From NCBI GenBank assembly GCA_020746105.1, contig CM036636.1, positions 3,038,001-3,102,000 on the forward strand: DNA of 64,000 nt. Direction: 5' to 3'. This stretch comes from Trogon surrucura (lineage: Eukaryota > Chordata > Aves > Trogoniformes > Trogonidae). The notes below the pieces were generated by a model. That model saw nothing but the letters and a program-made list of their open reading frames with translations. It had not been told where the DNA came from and did not search any database. Both the position numbers and the translations under genes were made by a program. Positions 46,901 through 49,900 of the stretch are shown in pieces. The stretch's first letter is position 1. Each line of letters starts with the position of its first letter.

Positions 46901-49900
46901 ATGAATAACAGAAAGGAGGTACCTGTTGTAGCCACAGCTTCCAGAGGAGAAGAGCGCTGTTCTCCAGCCAATCCATACACCTTGATTTTATAGGAAGTGT
47001 TGGCTTGGAGGCCGTCAATCACAGCACCTACGGATTCTCTGGGCAGGAAGGTTTCTGCAGGGGGTCCAGCTGCCAACGACACTTCCTCATACTCCACCAC
47101 AAAACTACTGTAGGCTCCTGTATTTGCATACCATGAGACACTAAAGCTGTGATCTGTTACCACCGAGACCACAAGGTCCCTCAGGGCATCTTCCTCTATC
47201 CCTGAGGCTTCTGGAGCGGGGAAGCCCCCAGAGCCAGAAAGCTCCTCTGGGTCAGGAGTCATTGCCTGCATTAGGATTAGACTATACAGAGCTACAAAGA
47301 AACAAACGAGCAAACAGCAGTGTGAAATACTTAGTTCTTCCTTTTCAGCAAAACAAAATAACATTTAGCAAACTGTTCGCTTTATAATCTTTGTCATCCC
47401 CTGAATGCAGAATCACACACATCAGTTAAAAAAAACCAACTTTGTCACTTGAGCTGCACTTCACCCATATGAAGAGACCGCAGCAAGAGAAGGCTGCCAT
47501 CCTATACCAGGGAAGATTTTGTGACATGTCCTTTGCTAGAGGTTCATGAGTTCTGAATGTTCGAGCTGTGTCTGTGTGAAGAGTTGATAATCATAAAATC
47601 ATAACAAGGAGAATGTGAGAGGGGAAAGAAGACACTAACAGAACATTTTCAGCTCTGGGGCTGAAAGAAGCTTTACCCACAATGATAGAAAACTCAATAC
47701 GCAAACAAAAATAACATGTTGGAAACTCCCGAATATCTGCCAGCAGACAAGCCTGACTGAACCATCAAGAGGCTGGAAAGAACAGAAGAAGAGAAATTGT
47801 CCATCTGGAGAAGCAAAGGAAATTCTGAAAAGAAAAACTTGCCCTTTTGCAGTCCCTGGCTCCCTGGTTCAGCAGGGATGGCACATGCCCCTCTGAACAG
47901 CAGGACTGTCTCCTCCACCCACAGAGAAGAGCTAGTCCAGTCCCAGCTGTGCTACTGGTATTTTCATCTTCAGTCATTCCTGTCTCTCCCTGCTCAAAGT
48001 AGTCTCCCCAGCCGTGCAATGGACCCGAGGTCACCCATAGCTCTGCAAGAGAGGGTAAAACAACAGGTTTGTTTGACTTAGCCTGAGGACTTCAGGACCT
48101 CCCAAGTACTGGGAACCTTGGTAAAGACAACTGACATGAGGGAGGATGAAAAAGTAAACCAAAGAACAGACCTCTTGTTTTACAGCCCACAGGCTTACAG
48201 AGCCTTTCTGCCTCCCCAAGCTCACGTGTTTGTGTTTGTCCATTCCTGCTCGGGAGGAAGGTCACAGAGACAGGTTATGTCAACTACTGCTCTTGCTTCT
48301 AAGGAGCCCACTGCACAGATCTCTGTTTGCTGGCTGTTCTAAGGTTTAAAACAAATACACTGGCCAGATGGGTGTATTTATAAAACAAAACCAAAGAAAA
48401 AAAACCAAACCCCAAACCAAATCAGGAGAAAGAAGCCACCTTGTGAGACTTTGGAAGCTGGTGCTAGAAAGACTAGACTGTGAAACTCCACAGCATGTTG
48501 TTTCTGCCTTTTCACCACCTATACCTGCTTTTTTTGAGAGCACTCAGTGTTCAGACAGATGGGGAAACAAGTAACTGTGGAAAAATTGAAGCCGGCTCAC
48601 TCCTGCTGCATAAACCTTTGACTTCCTTTTGTATGTGTGTGCCTCAGGGCTTCCTAAGTTTTTTCCCTACACTGTAATTCAGTACTGTTGCTTTTCTGCA
48701 GTGTACACCATACAGTAAAACTCTGCTGTACTGGAGTATTTGATTGTAAAAGCATTCAGAGGTTCTCCTGGCATGGACACGACTAGGGAATACGAAAGCA
48801 GTTTTGAACAGTTAGGCTGTATCATTATTAATTTGTAAAATCGACAACTTCTGGCATGTGTTTACCTCACAGATGGTCCCTGGGGAGAAAAGGACGAACA
48901 CCTTCATATCTGCTAAGGATAATAATTGTGGCCCAGCTGGTTCTGATTTCACTGTCTCTGCTTACTTCCAGCAGTCAAGGCTTTGCCTCACAGGATTTAG
49001 CCTGAAGGCAAGCAAAGATCCAGGACTTACTTAGGCTCTATATCAAGATATAATTCAGTATGCAACAAGCTTTGGGTCCAATGTCTTACAAAAAAATAAA
49101 AACTCATTCGATAAATAGTCCACTGATACAGGTTAATCCTAGTGGTTTGTACAAATGAAAATGGCAGAAATTGTGGACAAATGTAACAGTGACGGTACCT
49201 AATGGAAAAAGTGACTGTGACCAGACTAGTAGTGGTAGCCCTTCCCATTTTTGAATGAGAAAACTGAAAAAAGGCAACATCAGAGCCCTGCTGATGCTAC
49301 TGAAGCATGATGGGTGGAGGCATGCTGTGAAAAGAATTCATTAGGCAGGAACAAGCTGTGTTCAATATGCTCTGGTTGCTCTTCCTCTTAATTTTTGGCT
49401 GTAGAAAAAAAAACGTGTTACAAGACATAATGCACCAATAAAGTAGCCTCATGTAAAATGAAGGATGAGCTCTGCATCTCCCGCAGGACAAATAGCTGCG
49501 TTCTTTGTCAGTCTTCTCAAAGGTTAAACAAGAAATCGTTGAGAGTGTGGAACTAAACACATCGCCCAATGGCTTGGTGCAGGGCACTCATCAAAAGCTG
49601 TTACTCACCAGTTGAACCCTTGACAGTTGTGGGTTTGCTTTTGTGTCTGCCTTTCTCCGCCACCAGACTAATGGTGTATTCTGTCCCTGCGTCCAATCCT
49701 CGCAGGACAAAAGAGGTGCTGTCCACGGGGATCTCCACTTCATTCTTCTTTCCAGAGGGGCTGACATAAATGAGGCGATAGCGATCAAACTTGGCCACTG
49801 GTCTTCTCCAGCGAAGGGATAAGGTGGTTTCAGTGGGGTCACTGACTTCCAAGTCCTTGGGGTTATCAAGATCTACAGGTAAAAAAAAAGCAAAGTAGAG

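Follow-up and report, generated by a model that had tools for sequence, protein, structure and literature searches.

A candidate extra FNIII cassette exon between repeat 5 and A1 of an avian tenascin-C gene

Introduction

In mammals, and in the classical chicken protein and cDNA, FNIII repeat 5 of tenascin-C (TNC) is joined directly to repeat A1. Mammals also have the cassettes A2, A3 and A4, which lie on the other side of A1 from the position considered here and closely resemble A1. The available parts of the literature describe tenascin-C as a protein of up to 15 FNIII domains (PMC1578592), the isoforms of which are distinguished by the choice of FNIII cassettes, a choice linked to tumour cell invasion (PMC2949648). 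Further additions are AD1 and AD2, additional domains of human, mouse and avian TNC that are expressed in embryonic avian tissue, according to the available part of the same source (PMC2949648). In the available parts of two further sources, repeat 5 is described as binding heparin and many growth factors (PMC3630135), the site for integrin alpha9beta1 is an IDG motif in the B-C loop of repeat 3, and TNC of the green anole is remarkably similar to its bird ortholog (both PMC11401434).

Here we describe an exon, X1, located between repeat 5 and A1 of a bird TNC gene. Like the cassettes A1, B, AD2, AD1, C and D, X1 consists of one FNIII module on one phase 1-1 exon, ends in a CAG/GTAY donor, encodes an acidic module and belongs to the same group of the repeat tree. 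It differs from these cassettes in its placement before A1, in having a second in-frame acceptor and thus a possible linker, and, in its short form, by four additional residues close to the module start. Mammalian A2, A3 and A4 are, like X1, extra cassettes adjoining A1; they are close relatives of A1 in sequence, whereas X1 shares 31% identity with A1 as found in this gene. AD1 and AD2 are, like X1, extra FNIII repeats beyond the classical set, but they are placed between B and C in the available part of PMC2949648, so that X1, being upstream of A1, is excluded as either of them by its position.

Location and reading frame

The window, i.e., the whole stretch of 64,000 nucleotides that was analyzed, contains a bird TNC gene on the minus strand. 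In an alignment with the tenascin structure 1qr4, which we take to be that of the chicken protein, repeat 5 of this gene differs at five of 89 aligned positions, of which one was read from intron sequence; the bird is thus near to chicken but a different species. The labels A1, B, AD2, AD1, C and D, as well as the choice of constitutive repeats, are assumed here from exon order. The following features are considered below.

49609..49872, minus strand: repeat 5 exon, upstream neighbour of X1, donor CTG/GTGAGT
46923..47291, minus strand: long form of the X1 exon, in which a 27-residue N-terminal extension precedes the FNIII module; highest-scoring acceptor, 47291
46923..47210, minus strand: short form of the X1 exon, starting at the second acceptor, 47210, with an FNIII module that lacks the extension
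46924..47184, minus strand: FNIII core of X1 (LRDLVVSVV ... AVATT), from Pfam fn3, the gene profile and AlphaFold
46917..46925, minus strand: X1 donor CAG/GTACCT, of the weak GTAY class, with the same nine bases as the AD1 donor
42635..42907, minus strand: X2, candidate second extra FNIII cassette between X1 and A1, fn3 44.4 bits, acceptor 8.1
39705..39977, minus strand: A1 exon, downstream neighbour of X2
46923, 42635, 39705, 37427, 36049, 33451, 31242 and 29495, minus strand: variable-region donors, all CAG/GTAY and without G at +5

X1 lies in an open frame of 166 codons on the minus strand (47364 to 46867). Its longest form (47291..46923) is intact, has a length of 369 nt, a multiple of three, and is phase 1-1, the same as its neighbours; starts at 47246, 47210 and 47195 would produce exons of 324, 288 and 273 nt, all of them multiples of three as well. 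X1 is thus one FNIII module on one phase 1-1 exon within the variable region of TNC. The introns measure 2317 nt (repeat 5 to X1), 4015 nt (X1 to X2) and 2657 nt (X2 to A1). The preliminary description had placed X1 between repeat 5 and A1; the position holds, but there is no direct contact with A1 because the X2 exon intervenes.

X2 (42907..42635, minus strand) is a complete FNIII exon with a Pfam fn3 score of 44.4 bits and the donor GTATTT. Its acceptor at 42907 scores 8.1; the start is possibly at 42982 (4.7) or 43045 (-2.5). Upstream of X2 there is an open S/T/P-rich stretch of 46 codons that could be an optional linker. With both X1 and X2, this TNC gene could encode 16 modules (5 + 8 + 3), the last three being presumably repeats 6-8.

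FNIII fold and genome searches

The score of X1 against the Pfam fn3 family (PF00041) was 42.4 bits, above the curated cut-off of 25. The 166-codon frame contains both peptides quoted in the preliminary description, which had proposed a phase 1-1 open exon with an FNIII core, and this proposal is borne out. A profile of 10 other single-exon FNIII repeats of this TNC gene, with X1 left out, matched X1 over positions 3-91 with 67.7 bits (E = 5.9e-20), compared to best matches of 3.3 to 10.1 bits per sequence in 20 random 64-kb sequences searched with the same profile. Among 1692 open segments on both strands, all other matches with E < 0.01 fell on X2 or on places that fit the order of the TNC repeats; one of these places, 19708-19580, presumably encodes the latter half of repeat 8. 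The profile score of X1 is the lowest among the 11 complete single-exon repeats (the next is 90.3), in part because X1 alone was left out of the profile.

The AlphaFold model of the X1 module, with the 11 repeats of the window as alignment, has seven strands and a mean pLDDT of 91. Across the 11 repeats, the core residues W27 and L68 are invariant and Y74 is nearly so. At the top of the Foldseek ranking of PDB matches stand FNIII scaffolds, and the first 50 include tenascin and fibronectin domains; as far as the titles tell, the 50 matches listed are FNIII domains or FNIII-derived binders. An IDG motif in X1 (short-form residues 65-67) was considered as an alpha9beta1 site and rejected, since it sits at the end of the fifth strand (62-66) and not in the B-C loop. 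The 27-residue extension is unstructured in the AlphaFold model (pLDDT of 50-60 over the first 30 residues). The codon score of this extension (47292-47212) is matched by 6.5% of 1500 open intronic pieces, and taken alone it could be a product of chance.

The genome assembly (1.17 Gb, 164 contigs) was searched with the 801-nt X1 region, and the sole DNA match was the region itself. In the protein search, where the best candidates were scored, the next-best match to X1 was the D repeat of the same gene, with 37% identity. The copy number of X1 found by these searches is one.

Splice sites

Acceptors were scored with a matrix derived from 23 known sites (each known site scored by leaving it out) and ranked among 4711 AG dinucleotides. 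The acceptor at 47291 scored 12.8, higher than 16 of the 23 known sites and lower than 7, and is in the top 0.5% of all AGs. The acceptor at 47210 scored 7.5 (9 known sites lower, 14 better; top 2.6%). The remaining two starts are much weaker: 47246 scored 1.3, with a single known site lower and 22 better, and 47195 scored -6.0, with all 23 known sites better. Further in-frame AGs at 47207, 47201 and 47189 scored -6.5, -1.1 and -8.5. A branch-point-like motif TTCAC has its A 32 nt upstream of 47291 with no AG in between, and 47291 is the only one of the four starts with such a motif at the usual distance. Based on the acceptor scores and this motif, we regard 47291 as the most likely start and keep 47210 as a second possibility, which would make the 27-residue extension optional. 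The start had earlier been described as ambiguous among four in-frame acceptors; the ambiguity stands, but the four are not equal by score, and two plausible acceptors are left, 81 nt apart and in frame. It should be noted that, over a stretch of 22 nt, the sequence at the 47210 acceptor is similar to that at the X2 acceptor (42907). A tandem origin of X1 and X2 was considered for this reason and dropped, since the protein tree leaves X1 unpaired with X2.

Donors were compared between the variable-region exons and 15 constitutive exons of TNC. All eight of the former end in CAG/GTAY, whereas GTAY occurs at one of the latter (Fisher p = 1.8e-5); the contrast is retained without X1 (7/7, p = 4.7e-5) and without X1 and X2 (6/6, p = 1.3e-4). 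Similarly, G at +5 is present in none of the eight variable donors and in 11 of the 15 constitutive ones (p = 0.0013). The constitutive set does not extend to the first exons, the second FReD exon or the latter half of repeat 8; the donor of repeat 7a was also left out, and its sequence, ACG/GTAAGA, does not weaken the contrast. As a second control, we used the donors of a tenascin-X-like gene, where 33 FNIII exon ends were examined and 32 had a readable phase-1 GT: GTAY was found in 0/32 and +5 G in 32/32 of these, which are near-copies and not independent observations. These donors read GTGAG in all 32 readable cases, unlike the GTAY of X1.

The X1 donor has a score of 1.83, matched or bettered by 5% of all GTs in the window, and its nine bases recur unchanged at the donor of the AD1-labelled exon. 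Lower scores are found for two constitutive donors, those of 7b (0.13) and 8a (1.28), and a weak donor alone is therefore no proof of cassette use. In the 30 nt after the donor, the number of T is on average 12.1 for variable and 8.7 for constitutive exons, with overlapping ranges. On inspection by eye, motifs of named splicing factors at distances of up to 250 nt from the eight variable exons formed no consistent pattern. The cassette-type splice sites attributed to X1 in the preliminary description were confirmed in that the donor is GTAY, as in the seven other variable exons, and two acceptors have typical scores.

The shared CAG/GTAY without +5 G is a possible common basis of cassette skipping.

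Relationships among repeats

A tree was constructed for 17 repeats: eight variable and seven constitutive repeats of TNC (repeat 8 was not assembled) and two tenascin-X-like repeats, which were kept after near-copies had been dropped from 47 matches. X1 groups with the other seven variable repeats and the tenascin-X-like repeats, apart from the seven constitutive ones (support 99/99). Within this group X1 is placed outermost, and the fork uniting the other nine members has a support of 86/76, which is not strong. Eleven of the 14 inner branches are open, with the bootstrap not settled, and X1 is paired with no single repeat. Compared one by one with the seven other variable repeats (X2 among them), X1 has an amino-acid identity of 30-36% (31% for A1). 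The tenascin-X-like repeats, from the same tree group, are 31-35% identical to X1.

The gene, presumably tenascin-X-like, lies on contig C150 (187 kb) of the same genome, where the 40 kb examined (positions 12001-52000) hold 33 FNIII exon ends. Its FNIII exons are near-copies with almost identical donors, indicative of a large tandem expansion. The alternatively spliced TNC modules cluster with the tenascin-X-like modules, away from the constitutive TNC modules (99/99). The variable repeats form a group of their own in 2% of 200 bootstrap trees; the tenascin-X-like repeats fall among them.

Intactness, selection and alternative readings

Judging from the sequence, we consider it likely that X1 is a real alternatively spliced FNIII cassette of avian TNC that is skipped mostly and included in restricted tissues or stages. 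The main alternative, which we regard as unlikely, is that X1 is a fossil exon, i.e., a former cassette that lost its use recently (less than about 0.1 neutral substitutions per site ago) and has acquired no stop codon or frameshift yet. Neutral decay was simulated from the present X1 (4000 runs for each distance, with indels assumed to occur at one eighth of the number of substitutions). The share of runs in which the open frame survived together with its AG and GT fell from 66% at 0.01 substitutions per site to 13% at 0.05, 1.9% at 0.10 and 0.2% at 0.15. A loss of constraint long ago is thus unlikely, whereas a recent loss is possible. Against the fossil reading, X1 has kept its open frame, its acceptor and donor and the whole FNIII core; it also shares its donor with the AD1-labelled exon, and the available part of PMC2949648 reports expression of AD1 and AD2 in tissue of avian embryos.

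Averaged over comparisons with the seven other variable repeats, X1 is 46/57/30% identical at codon positions 1/2/3; among those seven repeats the figures are 51/64/35%. Such a pattern is expected if selection at the protein level has acted for at least part of the history of X1. Other sequence properties are closer to a fossil. The CpG observed/expected ratio is 0.27 for X1 and 0.14 for X2, compared to 0.33-0.61 for nine other exons and an intron mean of 0.23. The codon-usage score of X1 is -0.04, between the mean of the intronic null (-0.39) and the values of nine repeat exons (0.04 to 0.24), which were themselves part of the training set; the X1 score is reached by 1.9% of 1500 open intronic pieces, and that of X2 by 13%. 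The intron-like CpG content and middling codon usage leave room for a low or recently lost use of X1. The weak donor is also consistent with a fossil, as is the fact that X1 is missing from the classical chicken protein and is not among the repeats that the available parts of the examined literature name. Searches with an X1 pattern yielded 14 matches in a collection of viral contigs and 156 in one of genome contigs, none of them confirmed; the two collections comprise viral, bacterial and archaeal sequences and are uninformative on conservation.

It is far less probable that X1 is constitutive, or nearly so, in this bird and not a regulated cassette at all. The strong acceptor at 47291 would fit such an exon, but the donor is of the weak class typical of the variable exons (all six besides X1 and X2) and rare among the constitutive ones, and in the classical chicken cDNA repeat 5 is immediately followed by A1. 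Least probable is an open frame that arose by chance or through an error of assembly: we found nothing in its favour as regards the core, and it could account at most for the extension. Against it stand the profile score, far above that of any of the random sequences, and the searches of the assembly, which found no other close copy of the region.

Discussion

The reading of X1 as a probably real, rarely included cassette suggests a simple scheme of regulation. The strong donor of repeat 5 would join a downstream acceptor by default, and the weak GTAY donor of X1 would make its inclusion dependent on regulatory factors. Because the repeat 5 donor is strong and the X1 donor is weak, X1, like the other cassettes, is expected to be left out wherever nothing aids its recognition. 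A common weak donor would be a simple explanation of why the cassettes are the exons that are skipped.

If X1 is included, the basic repeat 5 (net charge +3) would be followed by an acidic module (-9), and use of the acceptor at 47291 would add a flexible linker ahead of this module. Since A1, the module that otherwise follows, is acidic too (-6), the main effect is likely to be altered spacing and flexibility next to repeat 5. A broader proposal, which we put forward as speculative and rather doubtful, is that birds, and perhaps sauropsids, have two unrecognised cassettes, X1 and X2, that are kept off by a U1-weak CAG/GTAY code, with the X1 linker tuning repeat 5 in particular embryonic tissues.

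X1 adds one more example to a known type of module and may already be present in automatic gene models (RefSeq, Ensembl). The available part of PMC11401434 names no extra repeat before A1, and those of PMC8071991, PMC9964472 and PMC7725900 make no mention of a repeat between 5 and A1. Such a repeat is undescribed in the available parts of the TNC literature examined, which covered repeats, variants, evolution, growth-factor binding and splicing, with a paper on novel avian variants (Development 1994, 120:637) outside this scope. Within these bounds, the new element is an intact extra TNC module between repeats 5 and A1, whereas the cassette type itself is known. If expressed, X1 would be an unexamined switch directly behind repeat 5, in a protein that has long been studied in chick embryos.
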